From IMG/VR virus record IMGVR_UViG_3300023174_000501, positions 1 to 29,500 of that record: a DNA stretch of 29,500 nucleotides; one strand, 5' to 3'. The position numbers were made by a program, and so were the translations under genes. This stretch comes from a virus. Positions 1,250 to 26,674 of the stretch are shown here, one piece after another (within the stretch, counting starts at the first letter, position 1; each line of letters starts with the position of its first letter). The notes beneath the pieces are model-generated. The model had not been told where the DNA came from. It made no database searches and worked only from the letters and a program-made list of their open reading frames with translations.

Positions 1250-1687
1250 TTACAGGTAATTTGTGATAGTTACCGCTACACCTGACTGTCCGACAGCATA
1301 CTTCTTAGAGACATCAAGCCTCACAACTTGACTGTCATCCTTCCAAATACCCCCAAAAGTGCAGGAATCAAGCAAACTGCGTGCAAGTTTATCGACATCA
1401 GGTGGAACAGTAGGCAAAGATCTAGTCACAGACTTCTTGCGTGTCAAATAAAACACTGCCTCAACCTTCACAGCCCCCACAAACATAGAATCATCCCCAG
1501 AATCAGTCATAGCCTGTTTTACAGCATTACTGACAGCCTTCCTCCAAGCAGGCAACTTAGGTGAACTTTCAACAATCATAGGTATCTTCGCACCTGCAGC
1601 TGTTGTTCTCTGACCGACATACTTCTTTGACCCTTGAGGTGCAGGATCAACCCCAAACACAGTAAAACTAAAACTATCCCTTGCCAT
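1250..1687 (-). CDS. rusA: RusA-like Holliday junction resolvase
   Basis: This 145-residue protein has the length and motif layout of RusA endonucleases, which cut four-way junctions made during phage recombination and replication. A PDVDK motif (residues 96-100) is followed by L-D, then by W-K-D-D-S-Q-V (115-121). These carry the acidic metal-binding residues (D97, D99, D117, D118) expected in the active site. N-terminal F-T-V-x-G-x-P-x-P-Q-G-S also fits. The gene overlaps the end of a small membrane-protein gene and lies downstream of SSB-like and helicase genes. Resolving branched DNA before packaging is the likely role. Confidence 0.9.
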   Translation of the reverse strand: MARDSFSFTVFGVDPAPQGSKKYVGQRTTAAGAKIPMIVESSPKLPAWRKAVSNAVKQAMTDSGDDSMFVGAVKVEAVFYLTRKKSVTRSLPTVPPDVDKLARSLLDSCTFGGIWKDDSQVVRLDVSKKYAVGQSGVAVTITNYL

Positions 1688-2179: not shown

Positions 2180-2449
2180 TCAACCTGCGACAATATGCGA
2201 CGGGTTTACACAATCCCGATGCCCACAAACACGCTCCCCAACCAAAACAAGCCTCCCAAACTCGTCAACAGGATTCAAAAACTGATCTACAGCCCCAACA
2301 TGCGGACTACACCGCAACTTGCCATACTGAATCGTTGTAGCAGGCTTCACACGACAACTAACACACAACAAATCCTTACGATTACGTTTCTCAGCGTTCA
2401 CAGCCCACCTAAAACCACACTTACAACACTCAACCTGATTATCCTGCAA
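2180..2449 (-). CDS. Zinc-binding HNH-like protein, copy 1
   Basis: The protein has two Cys pairs (C-C-K-C and C-V-S-C) followed by G-E-R-V-C-G-H-R-D-C-V-N-P-S-H-I. That last motif matches the CVNPxH part of HNH_3-type nuclease folds. The first His and catalytic residues of an HNH nuclease are not clear, so it may be a degenerate nuclease or a structural DNA-binding zinc protein. The preferred start is a TTG at 2449, six bases after AAGGAG and overlapping the dnaB stop; an ATG at 2515 would add 22 residues inside dnaB. A clear paralogue lies at 4288-4653. Confidence 0.65.
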   Translation of the reverse strand: MQDNQVECCKCGFRWAVNAEKRNRKDLLCVSCRVKPATTIQYGKLRCSPHVGAVDQFLNPVDEFGRLVLVGERVCGHRDCVNPSHIVAG

Positions 2450-3728
2450 ACCCAATCTCCTTAACCCTAGAGAACTCACCAACAAAGTTTGCTTCAAACC
2501 AACCCGTAGCACCATGCCTATTCTTTACAACATCCAAAACAATTAAACTCTTCTGCCCAAAACTCAACCTATCAGCATTCCTACCCTTACCAATAGCAAT
2601 ATCTTTCAACACATCAGCATCAGACTGCTTCCTAGACAACATAACAATCACATCCGCATCCTGTTCAATCTGACCAGAATCACGCAAATCAGAAGCATTA
2701 GGACGTTCATCAGGTTTACCCTGATCTACACGCCTATTCAACTGAGCCAACGCAACAACAGGAACACCAAACTCCTTAGCAAGATTCTTCAAATCAATGC
2801 TAATCTGCGAAATCTGTTCATACTTCGGTGCCTTCGGATTGTTTGCTGCAATGAGTTGCAGATAGTCAACAAAAATGGCTTTCACAGGTCGCTTCAACAT
2901 CACAGCATTCACGTAAGCTCTAATCTGTGCCACAGTTTGACCGCCACGATCACTGATAATCAACTTATTTTCGACAGTGCGAATCAAATCCTGTATCTTC
3001 CGTCTATCAGCATCAAGTAAATCACCTCGCTCAATTTTGCTTAAAGTAATCTGCAGTTCCCCTGCCACAACACGATTCAACAGGCTAGCCTTATCCATTT
3101 CCAAACTAAAAAACAGCACATCCTCACGCCGAGCAATCTCCCAAGCCAACTGCAAACCAACCACAGTCTTACCAACCCCAGGTCTAGCCCCAAACACATA
3201 CAAACCCGACTGCTTCAACCCCACAATCAAACTATTTAAACCTTCAAAACAAGTAGGCAACAAACGTTTCGGATTCAAAATGTCATTCAACATCATCTGC
3301 AAATCCCAACGCAAATCAGGCAACTCCAATGCTTCAGCAACACGCAACTTATCTAACTTAGCCCGAACAGCATCAATTCTCGCCTGCACACCCCCAGAAA
3401 CATCAGTCTGCAAATCTGAAGCCAACAACCTCAACTGCCGGTCAACACTCGCCTCAACAACCTTCGACACATAATAATGCAAATTAGCGGGATAAACAGC
3501 CAACATCACAGCATCACAAACACGCTGCCTAACAGTCTGATCCTTCAACTCTGCACACACAGTAAACACATCAAAAAAGGCTTTAGCATCAAACTGTTTA
3601 GACATCACATCAAAAGCCTGAACAAACCAAGGCGAATCAAAATCTTCACCCGAAATAGCAAGATCACCGAAACCCCTACCCTGATTCGACAACAAACTCC
3701 CAATCACAAGCTCTTCAAAATCAATCAT
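2439..3728 (-). CDS. dnaB: DnaB-like replicative helicase
   Basis: A 429-residue RecA-fold helicase of the DnaB family that unwinds DNA at the phage fork. The N-terminal helical domain (about 1-130) is followed by Walker A GARPGVGKT (181-189), S-L-E-M (209-212), Walker B IFVDYLQLI (286-294), a sensor Q-L-N-R (330-333) and an R-D-S-G-Q-I-E-Q-D-A-D stretch (350-360), in the order expected for the family. The frame has GTG at 3731, but the ATG at 3728 overlaps the upstream stop (TGATG) and is preferred. It follows the winged-helix initiator gene, the usual partner that recruits helicase to an origin. Confidence 0.93.
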   Translation of the reverse strand: MIDFEELVIGSLLSNQGRGFGDLAISGEDFDSPWFVQAFDVMSKQFDAKAFFDVFTVCAELKDQTVRQRVCDAVMLAVYPANLHYYVSKVVEASVDRQLRLLASDLQTDVSGGVQARIDAVRAKLDKLRVAEALELPDLRWDLQMMLNDILNPKRLLPTCFEGLNSLIVGLKQSGLYVFGARPGVGKTVVGLQLAWEIARREDVLFFSLEMDKASLLNRVVAGELQITLSKIERGDLLDADRRKIQDLIRTVENKLIISDRGGQTVAQIRAYVNAVMLKRPVKAIFVDYLQLIAANNPKAPKYEQISQISIDLKNLAKEFGVPVVALAQLNRRVDQGKPDERPNASDLRDSGQIEQDADVIVMLSRKQSDADVLKDIAIGKGRNADRLSFGQKSLIVLDVVKNRHGATGWFEANFVGEFSRVKEIGFAG

Positions 3729-4288
3729 CACTCAGCATCCCTCTCAGCATTGTTCAAAAATGTCCACCAACGCTCAAGCCTGACCTTCTCGGTATAAGCA
3801 GAACTACACTCAAAAGACTGTTCAAACTGTTTCAACAACACCTGCACCTGCAACGGAGCAAACCCAGAAACATCACAAGACTTCCAAAACAGAGGCGTAA
3901 AATCTGTTGACTCAAACTTATTTATTTCTTGCTTATCTAATTTATTTAATTGTTTATATAATAGGCGGAAGTTTTTGTCGTTTTCACCGGAAGTTTTTGC
4001 AGATATAGCGGAAGTTTTTGTCGTTTCAATACAAGAAATCCAATACAAATTCGCTTTCTGAGAAAGATTACTGCCCTTCACCCAACGCAACTCACCCAAC
4101 GTTTCAAGTCGCCTAATACTATTCCTGATAGATCTATTATCAACACCGCAAACCTTAGCCAAATAATCTTGACTAGGCCAAGCCCCCACCCCAACCTTAT
4201 ATCTGCGAGCAATAGCCAACAACACTAATTTGTCTGTTTTACTTGCTTGAGAGTTATCCCAAACTAAATCCATCTCTCTATAACCCAT
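3728..4288 (-). CDS. Winged-helix replication initiator / helicase-loader-like protein
   Basis: The first ~90 residues form a helix-turn-helix domain of the HTH_36 type: T-D-K-L-V-L-L-A-I-A, then W-P-S-Q-D-Y-L-A-K-V-C-G-V, then R-S-I-R-N-S-I-R-R-L-E. The middle (about 95-125) is low in order and is where the DNA carries three iterons. The C-terminal ~60 residues are helical and could contact helicase. Domain plan and position directly before dnaB match lambda O-type initiators. The start overlaps the upstream stop (TAATG) and has AAGGAC upstream. A transcriptional regulator is the alternative; the iterons favour an initiator. Confidence 0.75.
   Translation of the reverse strand: MGYREMDLVWDNSQASKTDKLVLLAIARRYKVGVGAWPSQDYLAKVCGVDNRSIRNSIRRLETLGELRWVKGSNLSQKANLYWISCIETTKTSAISAKTSGENDKNFRLLYKQLNKLDKQEINKFESTDFTPLFWKSCDVSGFAPLQVQVLLKQFEQSFECSSAYTEKVRLERWWTFLNNAERDAE
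3917..4027. other. Candidate replication origin: three iterons plus AT-rich tract
   Basis: The 12-mer cggaagtttttg occurs three times, at 3966-3977, 3988-3999 and 4009-4020, with periods of 22 and 21 bp. Copies 1 and 3 match over 19 bases. The iterons lie inside the initiator gene and border a strongly AT-rich stretch (about 3917-3963) that could melt. Copies 1 and 2 fall in different reading frames, so protein constraint does not explain the repeat. The arrangement resembles the lambda origin within gene O. Confidence 0.7.
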
Positions 4289-4653
4289 TATTTTGTCCTT
4301 GCTCTCTTGTCTTGTTGCCTTATTTCGCTGCTCATCAAAATTAAGTCCAAATCTGAAACTGTTTTCTTTGCAGGTTTAATAACATGATTTCTGTTGACAC
4401 AATCTTTGAACCCGCATAAACGTTCTCCAGGCATGTAGAGGTCGCCTATAGCGTTGATTGGTCGCCACAGCTCATCAACTTCACCTGTGTAGGGTATGCA
4501 CTCTATTTTGCCTAAAATTGGATGATTGACTATGAGTCGCAGTTTTGGTGTTGCCCTGCAGTCTGCACAGTGATCCCATTGTGGTCTGTGCCTTGACTTG
4601 TTTTTAGCCCAAGTGCTGTAAGGGATAATTTGGCCGCATTGTAAACAGAACAT
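4288..4653 (-). CDS. Zinc-binding HNH-like protein, copy 2
   Basis: Paralogue of the 2180-2449 protein. It has C-L-Q-C near the start, C-A-D-C, then L-G-K-I-E-C, G-E-V-D-E-L and G-E-R-L-C-G-F-K-D-C-V-N-R-N-H, with a basic tail. The chosen start at 4653 follows GAAGG and places the first Cys pair near the N-terminus as in copy 1; an ATG at 4704 is possible but has no ribosome-binding site. The C-x9-NxH end resembles HNH_3-type zinc folds, but catalytic residues are not certain. It lies directly upstream of the initiator gene. DNA binding or nicking near the origin is possible but unproven. Confidence 0.65.
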   Translation of the reverse strand: MFCLQCGQIIPYSTWAKNKSRHRPQWDHCADCRATPKLRLIVNHPILGKIECIPYTGEVDELWRPINAIGDLYMPGERLCGFKDCVNRNHVIKPAKKTVSDLDLILMSSEIRQQDKRARTK

Positions 4654-4716
4654 GTCACCTTCGTTGAAGATGCTTGTGCTGTTGTCTAACCTAGTTGTCC
4701 GCATGTCAAGTATCTA

Positions 4717-4912: not shown

Positions 4913-5390
4913 CAGCCTTACCTTTGATCGCTTCAAGAATACTAGATGGTGCTTTACCTTGTTTCGCCTCATTGTAGAGTGAGCGTAACCCTTCAATGTC
5001 GTTAATGTTTGACAATGCTACATTCCAGTTACGATCTACGGGTTCAGTTGAAAGTCTTGCTACTTTGCCCATTTCTTGTGCTGAAGGTCTTTTACCTTTA
5101 GGACTAAACTCGTGTCCAAGCAAAGATAGGCAGCGTGCTGTTGCACTTGTTGAACAGTTTTCAACAAAAGATGTTTTGTTTACCGGTGATGAACCTAAAC
5201 GTTCTTCCGCATAATCGACTGCCATAGGGTTGACATCATCTCTTTTTGCATAGCATTCGGCTTTAAAAACTACTTGTTCAGGTGTAAATGATACGAGTTC
5301 TGTATGTAGCCTGCCATTCGGGTATTTCAACCAGAACAGGTCTATGCGTTCTTGTGCAGTCTGATATTCGCTGAGGTTAAAGTGTGCCAT
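4881..5390 (-). CDS. Candidate single-strand annealing recombinase
   Basis: The 169-residue product has an N-terminal E-R-I-D-L-F-W-L-K-Y-P-N-G-R, a beta-rich stretch with V-V-F-K-A-E-C-Y, then Y-A-E-E-R-L-G-S-S-P-V-N-K-T-S and E-N-C-S-T-S-A-T-A-R-C-L-S-L-L-G. The last motif resembles the ENxxTSAxGRALxxLG motif of Erf/Rad52-like phage annealases. It overlaps the YqaJ-type exonuclease stop by one base (TAATG), the usual exonuclease-annealase pairing. Such proteins anneal the strands exposed by the exonuclease. I infer this from motif and context; a hypothetical accessory protein is the alternative. Confidence 0.6.
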   Translation of the reverse strand: MAHFNLSEYQTAQERIDLFWLKYPNGRLHTELVSFTPEQVVFKAECYAKRDDVNPMAVDYAEERLGSSPVNKTSFVENCSTSATARCLSLLGHEFSPKGKRPSAQEMGKVARLSTEPVDRNWNVALSNINDIEGLRSLYNEAKQGKAPSSILEAIKGKADGIVRTQTSN

Positions 5391-6271
5391 TATTTCGCTT
5401 TCTTGATTGTTAGATATGGTGCATTACCTGATCGTTGAGATAAAGTGACAACAACTTCACCATCAATGCAACCATTCTTAGCCCCGTTTAATGCTTGAAT
5501 TACTCTTGATTTCATTTCTCGTAAATGTGTTTCAGCTGTATCTAAATCTGTTTGAGCGTTCATCAATTCTATTCCGAGTGTCCCTAATTCTTCGTCACGA
5601 GTTTCAACGTTAGGTGAGAGTTTGCGTGTCGTTTCATAGGTGCTTTCACTGCCATCCCATTCAGGTTGCAGGTTATCTAAAACATGTTGCCTAAACTTTT
5701 TGACTTGCTGCAGTATCGCTTCCCATTCGAAGTCATCCCAGATAACCTCGTATTCTTTATATCTGCCTGCATTAACTACAGCAAACACAGCTTTCTTCAA
5801 ACCAAAAACAAACATATACCAAAACACTTGAGCCTTATAGTGTTCAGGCACGTCATCCCAAAATGTTGCAGTGTGCTTAATTTCTAGAATGTAGCCTTGC
5901 CCTGTCGCATCTATACAAACCGCATCAGGGTTAGCGTGCATCCATGACGCTGAAGGTGCAGCATAAGTGCCAACCTCTTCAACAACATGATCAACATGAT
6001 TCTCTGTATAAAGTTGACGGATAGCAGGTTCAACGAGTTGACCTAAACGCATAGCAGTATTACCTACAACATCTCGTTCAATGCGACCTGTCTTTTCAGC
6101 CCACAAGGTCACTGCAGAAGTAAAAGGCGACAACCCAAGAATTGCACCAACCTCACTACCGGAAATGACACCTGGACGATTACGCAACTCATGCCACTCA
6201 GGACTGTTGTTTTCAAAGTTACCTAAATGTAATGCTTTATTTAGGATTTCCTGTATTTTGGTATTTCTCAT
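5390..6271 (-). CDS. YqaJ/lambda-exonuclease-type recombination nuclease
   Basis: A 293-residue nuclease of the PD-(D/E)xK superfamily that degrades one strand of a duplex to start recombination. Visible motifs: W-H-E-L-R-N-R with G-V-I-S-G-S-E-V-G-A-I-L-G (26-46), R-L-G-Q-L-V-E-P (75-82), N-P-D-A (D116), I-L-E-I-K-H (E130, K132) and Q148, in family order. A helical C-terminal part (about 215-260) follows. It is the first leftward gene after the divergent whiB start. No Shine-Dalgarno is present; TAGAGT sits at -12 to -7, suggesting a leaderless transcript. Confidence 0.87.
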   Translation of the reverse strand: MRNTKIQEILNKALHLGNFENNSPEWHELRNRPGVISGSEVGAILGLSPFTSAVTLWAEKTGRIERDVVGNTAMRLGQLVEPAIRQLYTENHVDHVVEEVGTYAAPSASWMHANPDAVCIDATGQGYILEIKHTATFWDDVPEHYKAQVFWYMFVFGLKKAVFAVVNAGRYKEYEVIWDDFEWEAILQQVKKFRQHVLDNLQPEWDGSESTYETTRKLSPNVETRDEELGTLGIELMNAQTDLDTAETHLREMKSRVIQALNGAKNGCIDGEVVVTLSQRSGNAPYLTIKKAK

Positions 6272-6286: not shown

Positions 6287-6580
6287 ATGACCGCAGACAA
6301 ACTTGCTTTAAATCGGATTACCTTAGATTTGCATGAAGCAATCATTGACAATGGTGGTGTCGAATGTGAGCAAGTGCCACACGTTTTCTTTCCCGAAGAT
6401 CTTGCAACACCAGGTCAATCACATATGCGAATAATGGCGACAGATACAGCGAGAGAAATCTGTTTACGATGCCCTGTAATAGCTCAATGCTTGAAGGTAG
6501 GAATGTTTGAAGAGTTCGGTATATGGGGTGGCACTACACCGGAACAGCGTAAACAAATACGTAAAACAAGCAGATACTAG
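6287..6580 (+). CDS. whiB: WhiB-family iron-sulfur transcription factor
   Basis: A 97-residue protein with the four WhiB cysteines at C27, C59, C62 and C68 (C...CxxC-x5-C), which bind a 4Fe-4S cluster, followed by the GIWGG turn (78-82) and a basic C-terminal tail (R-K-Q-I-R-K) for DNA contact. WhiB proteins occur in Actinobacteria and their phages, so this is the main host clue. It is the only plus-strand gene, starts 15 bp from the divergent exo gene and ends in a shared CTAG with the convergent neighbour. It is well placed to switch transcription at the start of the leftward program, possibly through host sigma factor binding. Confidence 0.95.
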   Translation: MTADKLALNRITLDLHEAIIDNGGVECEQVPHVFFPEDLATPGQSHMRIMATDTAREICLRCPVIAQCLKVGMFEEFGIWGGTTPEQRKQIRKTSRY

Positions 6581-16133: not shown

Positions 16134-17138
16134 TTAGATAAGTCTTTGAGTCCAAGTCTTAGGTGTCAAATCAGAGTCAATCTCAATCGGCAAATGATAT
16201 TCAAAATCCTTCACACGAGGTCTAATCCACTCCACCAAATCACGCAAACCCTGATCTAAACTGATAGTCGTTTCATAACCTAAAAGTTGTCTAGCCTTAT
16301 CGGAACTACATAAAGCAACAGGCACTTCTTGTGGTCTGCCAGGCATAAAGATAGGGTCAAGGTCAAAGCCAATAATGTTTGCAAGTCTTTCAGCAAGGTT
16401 CAAAATAGTTATAGGCGATTCATCAGGCCCAATGTTGATAACCTGCCCTACAACTTCCTCAGACTCACATGCCTGCAATATAGGTGCAATAACATCCTGA
16501 ATAAAACTAAAACATCTTTGCTGACTACCATCACCATAAATAATAGGCTGCTTACCCTGCAACATCCTGTTAGCCATAATGCTTGCAACGTTCCTAAACG
16601 GGTCATCAAATTTCTGTCTAGCACCAACAATGTTATGAGGAACAAGAATCACCAAATCAACATTATGAACTTCAGCAAGATTAGACAACAATTTTTCAGC
16701 TGACAACTTAGCAATACCATACGGATCTTGCGGTTTAGGTGTCAACGACTCATCAAAAACATGCCCTAAATTATCGCCATATCGTGCCATAGAAGACATG
16801 TAAACAAACTTTGGCACTCCAGCCCGAATACTCGCAGTCATAACGTTCACACTTATTTGAACAGTGTTTCTGACTACAAGGCTAGGACTGAACACACTCA
16901 AACCCTCATAAGCGGTGCAAGCAGCATGAATAACCAAATCAGCCCCAACAAATACAGGACTAATAGCAGTCAAATCATCCAAATCAAGTTCATAAAATTC
17001 GACACCTTCAGGAACATTCTCGATATTCCCACCAAGCAAGTTATCAATCCCACGAACCTGCCAGCCCTTAGCCAAATACGCATCAGCAACATGGCTACCA
17101 AGAAACCCTGCAACACCTGTAACAACAACTAATCCCAA
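16134..17138 (-). CDS. NAD-dependent sugar epimerase/dehydratase
   Basis: The 334-residue product is an extended short-chain dehydrogenase. It has the G8-x2-G11-x2-G14 nucleotide motif (T-G-V-A-G-F-L-G-S-H), S115-S116, and the catalytic Y140-x3-K144 pair. The whole domain is present, so it is probably active on a nucleotide sugar, as UDP-glucose 4-epimerase-type enzymes are. The start is TTG at 17138, overlapping the glycosyltransferase stop, with no ribosome-binding site, so translation is likely coupled. It is the third gene of a sugar module set between capsid and connector genes. Exact substrate cannot be told. Confidence 0.88.
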   Translation of the reverse strand: MGLVVVTGVAGFLGSHVADAYLAKGWQVRGIDNLLGGNIENVPEGVEFYELDLDDLTAISPVFVGADLVIHAACTAYEGLSVFSPSLVVRNTVQISVNVMTASIRAGVPKFVYMSSMARYGDNLGHVFDESLTPKPQDPYGIAKLSAEKLLSNLAEVHNVDLVILVPHNIVGARQKFDDPFRNVASIMANRMLQGKQPIIYGDGSQQRCFSFIQDVIAPILQACESEEVVGQVINIGPDESPITILNLAERLANIIGFDLDPIFMPGRPQEVPVALCSSDKARQLLGYETTISLDQGLRDLVEWIRPRVKDFEYHLPIEIDSDLTPKTWTQRLI

Positions 17139-17767
17139 GAGTTCACACGCCTAATCTGCAAATCCCAGCGACCCTCATCAAACCTGCCAGCATCAACTTT
17201 ACTGTCAAAATACTTTCGATTCTTAGCAAAAGTAAATTCATTACGCAAAGTCAACTGCACATTATTGTTGATAGTTGAACTGTTGTCATGTCCGAGCTGT
17301 AAAGGCAAACGATCTACACGCAAACCAGCCTGATTGATTCTTCGCTCAAAGTCATTATCTTCAAAATAGATAGGATGCAAACTTTCATCAAACAGTCCAA
17401 TAGACTTTACAATTTCTTCACCAACAGCAAAAGTCTGATAATAAGGAAACTTATCGCACAAAGTCAAAGCATCAGGTTTAGCAGTGTTTAGCAAAGTCAA
17501 ATCGCCATGCTCAAAATAGCAGTCAGCCGAAGTAAAAAACCAGCGTGACTCAAAAGGCAACATTTTGATACCCAAATTCCACGAACTTGCAACACCAAGA
17601 TTAGAAGGCACATCAACCCACCAAAGCGTAACCAAAGGATTATTGATTTTCAAAGGCCAATGCCTACCAGAATTGTTGATTACATAAACAGTCGCTTCGA
17701 TGTCAATGCTTTCAATCATACGAACAAGCAAATCAAACCTGTTCAAAACAGGAACAATCAACTTCAC
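17129..17767 (-). CDS. Family 2-like glycosyltransferase
   Basis: The 212-residue product starts I-V-P-V-L-N-R-F-D-L-L, then has N-L-G-V-A-S-S-W-N-L-G-I (56-67), an acidic metal site around T-S-A-D (D82) and Y-F-E-D-N-D-F-E-R-R (134-143), matching GT-A fold glycosyltransferases. It is shorter than most but covers the catalytic domain. The GTG start overlaps the preceding stop by four bases (GTGA). With its neighbours it could add sugars to virion proteins or to host surface glycans. Confidence 0.82.
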   Translation of the reverse strand: MKLIVPVLNRFDLLVRMIESIDIEATVYVINNSGRHWPLKINNPLVTLWWVDVPSNLGVASSWNLGIKMLPFESRWFFTSADCYFEHGDLTLLNTAKPDALTLCDKFPYYQTFAVGEEIVKSIGLFDESLHPIYFEDNDFERRINQAGLRVDRLPLQLGHDNSSTINNNVQLTLRNEFTFAKNRKYFDSKVDAGRFDEGRWDLQIRRVNSWD

Positions 17768-18945
17768 TTCGTCGCTAACTTGTCAATCAAAGGCTTCCAA
17801 GACTCTGCATAAACCTTATTAGCATCATACTGACGAGCAAAAGCCAAAGTATCAGGAAACTTCTTCCTTCCACGCTGATAAGCCTGCTCCAAAGCATCCA
17901 CAATACCTTGCACATTAGGAACATTGAACCAACAGTGTTGACCTGCATCCCAAAAAGGTTGCCCATTCACCAGAAACGAATCAGGACTCGCAAGTTCAGC
18001 CGAAGCCGCAAAGTTAGAGGTAATAATAGGCACGCCACAAGCCTGAGCTTCAATCTGAGGAATACCAAACCCTTCACCATAGTTAGTGAACAAACCGACA
18101 TCCCAAGCCGAATAGATAGCAGCCAAAGTCTTTTGACTTATCCCATAACTATAGGCAATAGGGTCAACGAACTTCACACGATCACTAGGCACACCACAAG
18201 CAGCAAGAATGTTAGGTAACACAAACCCTGACTGCTTACCATAAGGTTCAGTGTGCAAATACAACACAACATCATCATGCTGTTTTGCGAATATTGCGAA
18301 TGCAAGAAAATTCTCTGCAACAGCCTTCCTATGAATAAACCCTCCAGCCTTATTAGCAAAATTCATGCCCACAACAAACTTGTCACCATCATCACCAACA
18401 AATTCACGACCCGAAATACCTTCAGGCAAAACATCTGTCGGAGTAAAAACTTTAGTATCAACAGCATGAGGAATATATTCAGACTCAATACCTGCCTGCT
18501 CAATCATCTCTCTACCAAACTTGCTCATAGCAATCGGCGTGACATTAGGCTTCTTCAACCAGGCTAAAACCTTTTCAGGTGCAGGCTGATGATCTATCGG
18601 AGTCCAAGAAGCAATAGGCAAAGCATCTAAAGCAGGATTATCTAAAACCCAAACATCATAAAGCGTGATAAGGAAGTTAGGTAAATCCTTGTTTTCAGCT
18701 GACCAATGTTGATGATGTAAAGGCAACACGTCAGTGCTGTATTGATTCATGCCCCTAGAGTAATGAGGTATCTTCCCTGCACCTGTATCAATAAAAGAGT
18801 TGACACCCTCACCACCATAGTTAGACAACATAGCAACCTTATGACCCTGCCTAACAAGACGTTGAATCACCTGTTGCGATTGAGTGCCATAACCTGTGGG
18901 CTGATTGAGAGAGTTGCTATACCAAGAAATACATGCTTTAGTCAT
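17764..18945 (-). CDS. GT-B fold glycosyltransferase (GT1/GT4-like)
   Basis: The 393-residue product has an N-terminal Y-S-N-S-L-N-Q-P-T-G-Y-G-T-Q-S-Q loop and a C-terminal E291-G-F-G-I-P-Q-I-E299 followed by A-C-G-V-P-I-I-T, the E-x7-E nucleotide-sugar motif of GT4-type enzymes. It heads the sugar module. The start has no ribosome-binding site but has TAGGCT at -12 to -7, and the module is cut off from the capsid gene by a strong terminator, so it should be transcribed separately. Confidence 0.88.
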   Translation of the reverse strand: MTKACISWYSNSLNQPTGYGTQSQQVIQRLVRQGHKVAMLSNYGGEGVNSFIDTGAGKIPHYSRGMNQYSTDVLPLHHQHWSAENKDLPNFLITLYDVWVLDNPALDALPIASWTPIDHQPAPEKVLAWLKKPNVTPIAMSKFGREMIEQAGIESEYIPHAVDTKVFTPTDVLPEGISGREFVGDDGDKFVVGMNFANKAGGFIHRKAVAENFLAFAIFAKQHDDVVLYLHTEPYGKQSGFVLPNILAACGVPSDRVKFVDPIAYSYGISQKTLAAIYSAWDVGLFTNYGEGFGIPQIEAQACGVPIITSNFAASAELASPDSFLVNGQPFWDAGQHCWFNVPNVQGIVDALEQAYQRGRKKFPDTLAFARQYDANKVYAESWKPLIDKLATK

Positions 18946-24026: not shown

Positions 24027-25553
24027 TTAGAACGAAAAGAACTCTGGCAAAGCCATCGATTCCAGTTTACTAGTAGAACGGTCATAAGCGATAACAAAAG
24101 CAACAGCAGCGTCAATACGGCGTGAAGAAGCTCTTGACTCTTTCACAATACGAGGCCCAAGATTATCTATCTTCAACTTACAGTTATCGATATGTCTGGC
24201 AAGCAGAGCATCACCATCGTGAGTCAAAGTTGCTTCCGTAACTGAGTCATAAACTTTCTGGCAAGCACCAACCATACGTCTAGCAGAAGTTGAAGGATAC
24301 TCAACAATAGGCAAACCCAAATCCATCAAAGCCTGCATAGTGCGTTGCCATCGAAAAGGGTCAAAAGCGATCTCTTTAGTATTCGGATGTTTCTGAGCAA
24401 ACTCAATAATCGTCTGCTCAACATCAAGCGTGTCAACACGCCAATCATCAGGGTCATTAGCCTGCTTTTCCCATGCCTTCACCAACCAAACATGAGGCTT
24501 TTCCTCTTTAGTTTTAGGCACAGTCACCGCCACAATAGCTGTCGTATCACCATTGAACGAACCATCCACACCCAAAACAACGTCAGCCAAATCATCAACA
24601 ACAACATCCTCATGCAACGTATCCCACAAACCTGCAGGCAACCAAGAGTTTTGTGAAGATACCCATTGATTGCAACGCTTAGTTCTAAACTCTGCTTCAG
24701 GAGTTCGCTTCACCATAGACTCAAAATCGGCTTTACTGTTCAAATCACCATAACCAGGATTAGCTGCAATCCAAGTGCTTTCCAACTTATGATCAGCATC
24801 CAAATCAGCCTGCCACCACGCCATATAAAAGTTAGGGTCATCAATCTCACCCTTAGCAACCTTCTGACCATACTGATACAACTGATAAGCAGTAGAGTCT
24901 TGACCTGTAGTATCAGTCTTCACACCACAAGTAGTAGTTGCCAACATCATCGGCTGCTTCCTAGAAGCCTGAGCAAGTTGCATAACATCCCAAAGCTCAC
25001 GATTAGGTAGGGCATGGCACTCATCCATCACCACAAAACTAGGGTTCAAACCTTCCTTGCTGTAAGCCTCTGCACTTAGAACACGCCAGATAGAACCTGT
25101 AGCAGGCACTTCAATAACATCCCTATAAATGTTGCACATAGCAGCAAGTTCAGGTTCACGCTCAATAATCTTCCTAGCATCACCAAAAGTAATTCGAGCT
25201 TGCTCCTTTTCAGCTGCACAAGAATAAACTTCACCACCATCATCACCATTGAACAAAAACCAGAGTCCTAATCCTGTAACAAGGGCTGATTTTCCGTTTT
25301 TTCTGGCCATGCCCCACAAGGCAGTTCTTTTCTTGAACAGCCCACGCTCATCAAGTTCAAGCGTTTCTTCCAAAAGTTGTTCTTGCCATGATCTAAGACG
25401 AATAGGTGAACCTGTATTACCTGCAACCGAATCCTTAGTCAAAGTAACAAACGTGTTTATAAAATCGACAGCATCAGCACCCCTACTGCCAAACTCAAGT
25501 TTCGTAGGAGTCACCAAAGCAGGCGGCCAACTACTCAGACTGTTCAACAACAA
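24027..25553 (-). CDS. terL: Terminase large subunit
   Basis: The 508-residue motor has Walker A R-K-N-G-K-S (84-89), Walker B F-V-V-M-D-E (173-178), an A-T-T-T-C-G coupling motif (205-210) and a C-terminal RNase H-like nuclease with acidic residues in G-V-D-G-S (D330), D336 and A-F-D-P-F (D398). It pumps DNA into the prohead and cuts it. Family resembles Terminase_1/HK97-type. The start is one of three consecutive TTG codons near 25553, overlapping terS by 23 bases. Confidence 0.93.
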   Translation of the reverse strand: MLLNSLSSWPPALVTPTKLEFGSRGADAVDFINTFVTLTKDSVAGNTGSPIRLRSWQEQLLEETLELDERGLFKKRTALWGMARKNGKSALVTGLGLWFLFNGDDGGEVYSCAAEKEQARITFGDARKIIEREPELAAMCNIYRDVIEVPATGSIWRVLSAEAYSKEGLNPSFVVMDECHALPNRELWDVMQLAQASRKQPMMLATTTCGVKTDTTGQDSTAYQLYQYGQKVAKGEIDDPNFYMAWWQADLDADHKLESTWIAANPGYGDLNSKADFESMVKRTPEAEFRTKRCNQWVSSQNSWLPAGLWDTLHEDVVVDDLADVVLGVDGSFNGDTTAIVAVTVPKTKEEKPHVWLVKAWEKQANDPDDWRVDTLDVEQTIIEFAQKHPNTKEIAFDPFRWQRTMQALMDLGLPIVEYPSTSARRMVGACQKVYDSVTEATLTHDGDALLARHIDNCKLKIDNLGPRIVKESRASSRRIDAAVAFVIAYDRSTSKLESMALPEFFSF

Positions 25554-25998
25554 TCACCTGTTCACGCTGTTCCTGCCTACGCTTCAACTGCTCCATCTTA
25601 GACTCAGCCTTTATCTCAGCCAAACCCAACTTAGAACGAGCATCAACAGTCAAACCCAACTTCCCCAAATTATTTACAATCGCTGCTTCCAAATCCAACA
25701 GCTGACGATGAATATGAAAATCATCAGGCTTCGCCACAAACGCCTGCTCCAACAAAACCTGACGATCCAACTGCTTACAAGTCAACAACAACAACTCAAC
25801 ATCAGACTGAGGGCTAATCCAAGTCTGCCCCTGACCAAACACCCGATTCCACAAAAGCAAGCCAGCCCAATCCAAAGGCTGATGAGGTTCAACCCTGCCA
25901 GAATGCAAGCTAATCGTCTTATCAATGTCAGGCAACCTACGCTGACCAGGATTGCCTAACGCCCTTTTCACTTCCAAAGGTTTAGCAGGATTAGCCAT
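25531..25998 (-). CDS. terS: Terminase small subunit, P27-like
   Basis: The N-terminus has K-R-A-L-G-N-P-G-Q-R-R-L-P, a signature of P27-family small terminases, followed by helical segments and a charged coiled C-terminal part (E-Q-L-K-R-R-Q-E-Q-R-E). It recognises the packaging site and recruits the large subunit. Translation has no ribosome-binding site; TAGGCT lies at -12 to -7, so it is probably leaderless and opens the packaging transcript. Confidence 0.8.
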   Translation of the reverse strand: MANPAKPLEVKRALGNPGQRRLPDIDKTISLHSGRVEPHQPLDWAGLLLWNRVFGQGQTWISPQSDVELLLLTCKQLDRQVLLEQAFVAKPDDFHIHRQLLDLEAAIVNNLGKLGLTVDARSKLGLAEIKAESKMEQLKRRQEQREQVIVVEQSE

Positions 25999-26012
25999 GC
26001 CCTAAGCCTAAT
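25996..26012 (-). promoter_or_regulatory. Leaderless promoter/start element of terS
   Basis: Minus strand ATTAGGCTTAGGGCATG, the same 17 bases as at the first glycosyltransferase. TAGGCT (26010-26005) is at -12 to -7 from the ATG. No -35 box is obvious. Confidence 0.5.
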
Positions 26013-26020
26013 CCAACTTA

Positions 26021-26062
26021 ACCCCTGAACTGCAGAACCACGCTTAGACTTGTGGTCGGGGT
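26021..26062. other. Hairpin-forming region upstream of terS, possible packaging-site part
   Basis: acccc (26021-26025) pairs with ggggt (26058-26062), and ccac (26038-26041) with gtgg (26052-26055). There is no T-tract on either outlet, so it is not a standard terminator. It lies in the only sizeable gap next to the terminase genes, where a cos or pac site would be expected. The function is a guess. Confidence 0.3.
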
Positions 26063-26083
26063 GTAAAAAATAAAAGTCAAAAC

Positions 26084-26114
26084 AAAAAATGGCCACCCCC
26101 ATCAATACCGGTGG
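26084..26114 (-). terminator. Candidate terminator after the HNH gene
   Basis: Read leftward, CCACC (26114-26110) pairs with GGTGG (26097-26093), followed after CCA by TTTTTTG. The stem is short, so it is weaker than the other two terminators, but it lies properly between the HNH stop and the terS promoter. Confidence 0.45.
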
Positions 26115-26145
26115 TATCAAAAATGTTTTGTTGTGTTGATTTTGT

Positions 26146-26475
26146 TTAGGTTAGTGGCTTGTTGCCTCGTCTAGAGTTGCATAGCGAGTGTGCAGCATCT
26201 AGGGGACTGTTGATGTCGCCTGGTATTAGGTGATCTGCTGTGATCTCGTTGCGGTCTGTGAAGGGTTGTTTGCATAGGTGGCAGTGTGTGGCTGTGGCTT
26301 TGAGGTATGCCCTGATACGCCTATAGTTTGAGTCGTTGTAGATTACCCTGCCCCTCTTCCTAGCGTTTTGTCTGATTCGTTCTCGTTCATCTACCCCTAT
26401 TTGATGTGTTGCACAGTAGCTTCCGCCTGTGGTGAGTTGTTTGCATGTTAGGCAGGGTTTCGGGAATCTACTCAT
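26146..26475 (-). CDS. HNH endonuclease
   Basis: The 109-residue product has C-L-T-C near the start, C-H-L-C, then A-D-H-L-I-P-G-D, L-D-A-A-H-S-L-C-N-S-R-R-G-N-K, the HNH nuclease core. Chosen start 26475 overlaps the preceding stop by eight bases. HNH proteins beside terminase genes are common in HK97-like phages, where some are needed for packaging-linked cleavage. It is separated from terS by about 150 bp with a terminator and promoter. Confidence 0.88.
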   Translation of the reverse strand: MSRFPKPCLTCKQLTTGGSYCATHQIGVDERERIRQNARKRGRVIYNDSNYRRIRAYLKATATHCHLCKQPFTDRNEITADHLIPGDINSPLDAAHSLCNSRRGNKPLT

Positions 26476-26674
26476 TATCGTCATCTAACGGGTCGTAGAT
26501 GGCTTGAAAACCTAAAGCGACATCAGTGTTAGTCAATGTTGAACTGTCCCTGCTATCAGCCTTGTGTGGCTTATCTGAGTGTTTATGTGTCCTACGCCAA
26601 GTCTTGACAAGTTCGATGGCTTCTCTGTCATCTGTTTCAAACTCTGCACCACAGGAACATGTTTCTCTTATCAT
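26468..26674 (-). CDS. Hypothetical protein (68 aa)
   Basis: The 68-residue product begins with C-S-C-G-A-E-F-E-T-D-D, then W-R-R-T-H-K-H, and ends in an acidic D-P-L-D-D-D-N-E. The C-x-C and the two His residues could bind zinc. It overlaps NlpC/P60 and HNH genes at both ends. No family recognised. Confidence 0.6.
   Translation of the reverse strand: MIRETCSCGAEFETDDREAIELVKTWRRTHKHSDKPHKADSRDSSTLTNTDVALGFQAIYDPLDDDNE

Follow-up and report, generated by a model that had tools for sequence, protein, structure and literature searches.

A probable iteron replication origin embedded in the initiator gene of an actinobacteriophage-like virus

The initiator-helicase locus and its repeats

The window analysed here (29.5 kb; positions 1 to 29,500 of the virus record IMGVR_UViG_3300023174_000501) carries on its minus strand an early module in which RecE/YqaJ is followed by two unassigned genes, a small Cys-rich protein, the initiator, a DnaB-like helicase, a second small Cys-rich protein and RusA. 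Among Pfam families the initiator hits HTH_36 (E 2.9e-13, residues 16-65), and its best PHROG is 8540, "replication initiation O-like" (E 1.1e-12), with replication initiators accounting for 10 of its 12 PHROG matches. The dnaB-like gene (2439-3731) overlaps the 3' end of the initiator gene (3728-4288), in agreement with the initial annotation, which had described a winged-helix gene directly before dnaB; no loader-like gene was recognised between the two. The features are given below in gene order.

5390-6271, minus strand: RecE/YqaJ-type exonuclease, upstream in the same early module (Pfam/PHROG profiles)
3728-4288, minus strand: initiator gene, 186 aa, with an N-terminal winged helix, a disordered linker and a C-terminal helical domain (ORF, profiles, AlphaFold2)
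4037-4288, minus strand: winged-helix domain, residues 1-84, proposed iteron reader (HTH_36 at residues 16-65; model)
4100-4138, minus strand: recognition helix, residues 51-63, containing N56 (AlphaFold2 model; covariation in 39/39 genes)
3896-4024, minus strand: linker-coding stretch housing the putative origin, residues 89-131 (pLDDT <50 at residues 90-120; array and AT tract lie here in relatives)
4009-4020, minus strand: iteron 1 (numbered in gene order), CAAAAACTTCCG, read as K-T-S and lying 57 bp ahead of the junction (exact repeat)
3988-3999, minus strand: iteron 2, read K-T-S, 21 bp after iteron 1 (exact repeat)
3966-3977, minus strand: iteron 3, read K-N-F in a shifted frame, 22 bp after iteron 2 (exact repeat)
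3914-3963, unstranded: AT-rich tract that may act as the DNA-unwinding element (stability minimum of the window at widths of 30 to 100 bp)
3734-3895, minus strand: C-terminal helical domain, residues 132-185, proposed DnaB contact, exchanged between relatives (model; covaries with the N-terminus of the downstream DnaB)
2439-3731, minus strand: phage DnaB-like replicative helicase, 430 aa (DnaB_C E 7e-66; PHROG 19 E 2.4e-82)
1250-1687, minus strand: RusA-like Holliday junction resolvase, downstream in the same module (Pfam/PHROG profiles)

The AlphaFold2 model of the initiator (22 sequences, mean pLDDT 70.7, pTM 0.41) places helices at residues 3-12, 17-28, 40-47 and 51-63 and wing strands at 67-70 and 81-84, while the linker residues 90-120 fall below a pLDDT of 50. 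A Foldseek search against the PDB returned generic winged helices only, none of them at E 0.001 or better. The two small Cys-rich proteins flanking the initiator-dnaB pair (4288-4704 and 2180-2515) are paralogues with 33% identity over 90 residues and a shared CGxxDCVNxxH motif; neither has a confident Pfam family, and similar proteins sit before the initiator in L011, L012 and L014.

The linker-coding stretch contains CGGAAGTTTTTG as an exact repeat at 3966-3977, 3988-3999 and 4009-4020, with no further occurrence in the 29.5 kb; its gene-sense (minus-strand) form is CAAAAACTTCCG. The copies at 3966 and 4009 share 19 identical bases, GCGGAAGTTTTTGTCGTTT, over which the copy at 3988 is 74% identical. 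The three copies, their 22/21-bp spacing, the 19-base identity of the first and third, and the difference in codon frame (K-N-F at 3966, K-T-S at 3988 and 4009) were thus all re-found exactly as first annotated. No second array or origin was found elsewhere in the window.

Next to the repeats lies the long AT-rich tract that had also been pointed out, 87% AT over 3917-3963, which begins at a conserved junction, ATTA(A/T)AT (3956-3962, minus strand). Nearest-neighbour calculations find no 50-bp segment of the window less stable than 3914-3963 (z about 5), and the stability minimum of the entire 29.5 kb falls on this tract at every width from 30 to 100 bp.

The cumulative GC-skew minimum near 3.95 kb that had been suggested as a check is absent. 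The local skew does step near the array, although the neighbouring genes are all on one strand: third-position skew is +0.56 in the initiator and +0.78 in dnaB, as opposed to -0.26 in the adjacent upstream gene, and coding-strand GC skew is higher downstream of the array than upstream in 28/28 loci. The step sits closer to the gene start than to the array. Since the pattern becomes patchy further out and the cumulative minimum is missing, the step hints only faintly at forks leaving the array in both directions.

Conservation of the array as DNA

Protein and alignment scans of IMG/VR yielded 38 distinct close relatives in which the linker is covered. Relatives that keep the protein and lose the repeats would, by the initial annotation, have refuted its reading, and the outcome favours that reading: all 38 have the array in the corresponding position, after the winged helix and ahead of the C-terminal domain, and in each it stops shortly before a conserved junction of the ATTA(A/T)AT type. 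Most have four units at a usual spacing of 21-22 bp, so the window, with three, lacks the outermost one. In most lineages the last step measures 22 bp rather than 21 bp, which puts the last unit in another frame than its neighbours, and this shifted-frame last copy (iteron 3 of the window) is kept in most relatives. Across relatives the arrays are read in two or even three codon frames. Mixed frames occur in the TGACC class as well (K-L-T, Q-N-D; word classes are described below), and all three frames are used in the L035, L089 and L091-L097 types (K/E-T-S, Q-K-L-P and K-N-F). With its Q-K-L-P unit, an L035-type gene by itself translates a single DNA word in all three frames.

Codon usage was compared among 14 divergent genes of the CTTCC class. 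K105, N106 and F107 are encoded by AAA, AAC and TTC in all 14, the AT-tract asparagine is AAT in 12/12, and the codons of N111, K112 and N115 in the AT tract are fixed in relatives as AAT, AAA and AAT. That asparagine is always AAC at the iteron and always AAT a few codons further on points to selection on the DNA. The mean major-codon fraction is 0.975 in the iterons and AT tract versus 0.66 elsewhere (permutation p <1e-5).

Synonymous recoding led to the same picture. Among 5000 recodings of the window linker none had three copies and none the cross-frame set; likewise, 0/5000 recreated the copies in L001, L010, L022, L028, L030 and L035, and the cross-frame set was reached 0 times in L049, 0 in L034, 8 in L042 and 16 in L031. 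L038, of the TGACC class, gave no signal in this test with the exact-word statistic. Overall, the window repeats are neither due to chance nor driven by the protein, and the earlier suggestion that they are conserved as DNA is borne out by the recodings, the near-fixed codons and the mixed frames of relatives.

Beyond the close family, the distant winged-helix genes L054-L059 have no repeats. The far more distant, GC-rich L105-L107 carry four copies of GGACAATTTGTC in the initiator linker, one of them in another frame; this array, located around 1168-1900 in an unrelated GC-rich phage initiator, is by its layout probably another embedded origin. No close relative of the initiator was found in bacterial genomes, and a plasmid search gave one remote match. 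Searches with an iteron pair returned 21 matches in bacterial and archaeal genomes, whose hosts are unrelated and which were on that ground taken as chance occurrences. Two extra viral matches (L111, L112) were set aside, since they fall within an unrelated gene, on its opposite strand, and a third copy is lacking.

Recognition helix, repeat word and exchange of the C-terminal domain

Most lineages have CTTCC as their repeat word; it is TGTCC in L022, L034 and L042, TGACC in L036-L041, L064-L066 and L080, AGACC in L087 and CACCC/CAGCC in L031, and minor variants aside, the copies within one array change word together. The change is mirrored in the modelled recognition helix. Residue 56 is Arg in 12/12 genes with G at the second base of the word and is not Arg in the other 27/27, so that R56 goes with G, and its absence with another base, in 39/39 genes. 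On a tree built with residue 56 masked, three changes are needed, at least two of which are forced by well-supported branches; because a single clade of R56 initiators has a p-AU of 0.14, the number of independent R56/G switches stays at two to three. The concerted change of the copies, together with the covariation of the helix, is the best indirect evidence that the initiator reads the repeats in its own gene, and strongly implies that it does. No word class of this initiator family exceeds shuffles in dyad symmetry, and from the asymmetry of the iterons we infer that the initiator might bind as a monomer.

According to the model, the putative origin is written in the part of the initiator that is expected to tolerate almost any peptide. 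The flanking domains have different histories. The C-terminal domains of relatives fall into several unrelated types; for example, the window and L004 have a similarity of 0.90 in the winged helix, 0.00 in the C-terminal domain and 0.03 in DnaB. Across 27 loci, variation in the C-terminal domain is correlated with that in the downstream DnaB (partial Spearman 0.69 when controlling for the winged helix, 0/2000 permutations), whereas the winged helix shows no such correlation (-0.06), and the point of exchange lies right after the origin. This covariation, the break at the origin and the lack of a recognised loader-like gene between initiator and DnaB lead us to infer that the C-terminal domain may contact DnaB directly. 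On the other hand, physical linkage could explain the joint exchange of the two in part, or even by itself. In L002, L003, L080 and L096 a methyltransferase-like gene with a TSPPY motif is inserted between initiator and dnaB.

The proposed origin, its alternatives and known systems

Taken together, these observations make it very probable that the array is an iteron replication origin embedded in the initiator gene of an actinobacteriophage-like virus. In the mechanism that we propose, the N-terminal winged helix of the 186-aa protein would bind the asymmetric iterons, all three of which lie along the same face of the DNA at intervals of two helical turns. Strain exerted by the nucleoprotein complex thus formed would open the neighbouring AT tract (3914-3963). 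To the strand exposed there, the C-terminal helical domain would recruit DnaB, the product of the following phage gene, and theta replication would then start at the array.

An operator, by which the protein would regulate its own operon with no role in replication, would give the same protein-DNA picture, a winged helix with binding sites in its own gene, and bound iterons could block transcription into dnaB. We nevertheless consider it quite unlikely. A conserved AT tract at a fixed distance is expected of an origin and not of an operator, the neighbours are dnaB, RecE/YqaJ and RusA, and lambda has a proven origin of this very layout (PMC7466680, PMC5043065); moreover, the site lies some 270 bp into the gene, and shuffled sequences contain more promoter-like matches, though on the whole scans for promoters and terminators told little. 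Still less likely is an RNA element or a recombination hot spot in the early transcript that involves no protein-bound DNA site. The C-terminal domain is exchanged exactly at the site, which therefore does serve as a recombination boundary, but such a boundary follows naturally from a conserved origin sequence, and a concerted change with the recognition helix needs a protein reader; an RNA element was rejected, as there is no Rfam match and the RNA folds no better than shuffles (z -0.95). Finally, amino-acid selection on K-T-S linker repeats, of which the DNA repeats would be a by-product, could appeal to the same tripeptide coming from two of the three copies and to AKTSA being repeated in many relatives, but has a negligible chance of being right, refuted as it is by copies in different frames (a third one in the L035-type genes), by fixed codons and an array that synonymous recoding does not recreate, and by the position of the peptide in a low-confidence, probably disordered linker.

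The embedded origin thus remains the preferred reading, and by analogy it is best explained as a system that would work like lambda O/ori-lambda and SPP1 gp38/oriL, i.e. as a known kind. In lambda the origin lies mid-gene in O and consists of iterons and an AT tract (PMC7466680, PMC5043065), the iterons being 19-bp inverted repeats bound by O dimers (PMC5043065). The lambda record has four annotated iterons at O offsets 348, 368, 392 and 415, in frames 0, 2, 2 and 1, directly followed by an 80% AT stretch; since they too are in mixed frames, cross-frame reading is a shared trait. Further likenesses are the roughly four iterons about two helical turns apart, the AT tract on their 3' side and a helicase function encoded next. 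In contrast, the lambda iterons are dyads and those of the window family asymmetric direct repeats, and lambda encodes a loader, P, and uses the host DnaB, whereas the window phage encodes its own DnaB with no P-like gene in between. An hhalign comparison of the initiator with the lambda O profile is not significant (probability 0.9%), while PHROGs 391, 678 and 345 are common to both. The label "lambda-like" of the initial annotation therefore holds for location, iteron number, the order of iterons and AT tract and the mixed frames, but not for dyad iterons, which of the two only lambda has, nor for direct O homology, which was undetected. Judged by its non-dyad iterons, its own DnaB and the insignificant direct similarity, the window initiator is not lambda O proper.

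In SPP1, oriL lies inside gene 38 and combines direct repeats with an AT-rich unwinding element, and the phage has a DnaB-type helicase, gp40 (PMC6316719). The window shares the direct repeats and unwinding element in the initiator gene as well as the phage-encoded DnaB-type helicase; SPP1, however, has a second origin, oriR, and the loader gp39, whereas in the window no second array and no loader gene were recognised. For the Staphylococcus phage 80alpha an origin has been inferred inside the initiator gene, ORF20, which is the point of likeness; it differs in that it has a DnaC/DnaI-like loader, ORF21, and encodes no helicase of its own (PMC5499656).

Of the named homologues found, the nearest is in the Arthrobacter phage Decurro (L044): its O-like gene encodes a homologous winged helix (hhalign probability 98.4%, E 8e-15). 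Unannotated repeat arrays follow the winged helix in Decurro, in the Curtobacterium phage Root (L043) and in RepO of the Pontimonas phage phiPsal1 (L108:24106-24240), and in all three the array is followed by the most AT-rich stretch of the gene, which makes them candidate origins in named phages. They differ from the window in that their repeats are dyads of unrelated sequence (the repeats of lambda, Root, Decurro, phiPsal1 and L105 all score as dyads), and phiPsal1 also in its 15-bp spacing and in the single frame shared by its copies.

A broader reading is that such loci are interchangeable origin modules, in which winged helix and iterons would form a cassette with an R56-reads-G code drifting in all copies, while the C-terminal domain and DnaB would be traded at the origin. 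We regard this as conceivable and put it slightly short of an even call. If true, the helicase partner could change without a change of the origin, and the origin word without a change of partner, with no separate loader. The present analysis places a replication origin, very probably, for little-studied environmental and probably actinobacterial phages, and the search for short words repeated across codon frames in an initiator linker offers a general route to phage origins. Since the approximately 40 natural variants include at least five iteron words and several types of C-terminal domain, they make up a panel on which to study initiator/origin coevolution as well as the choice of helicase by an initiator; what most merits experimental work is the recognition code and the helicase swap.

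The large terminase of the window is closest to that of phiPsal1 (53% identity), and the plus strand at 6287-6580, against the direction of the neighbouring genes, encodes a WhiB-family regulator, such as phiPsal1 also has. The terminase and the WhiB gene together suggest an actinobacterial host. Epimerase and glycosyltransferase-type genes (16134-18945) lie between the capsid and neck-type genes of the window, the same place that glycosyltransferases occupy in phiPsal1. Third-position GC skew also flips sharply, from +0.85 in the neighbour on the upstream side of the large terminase (25531-25998) to -0.52 at 26146-26484, in a gene of HNH type, which possibly marks a packaging site or genome end within 25531-26484.
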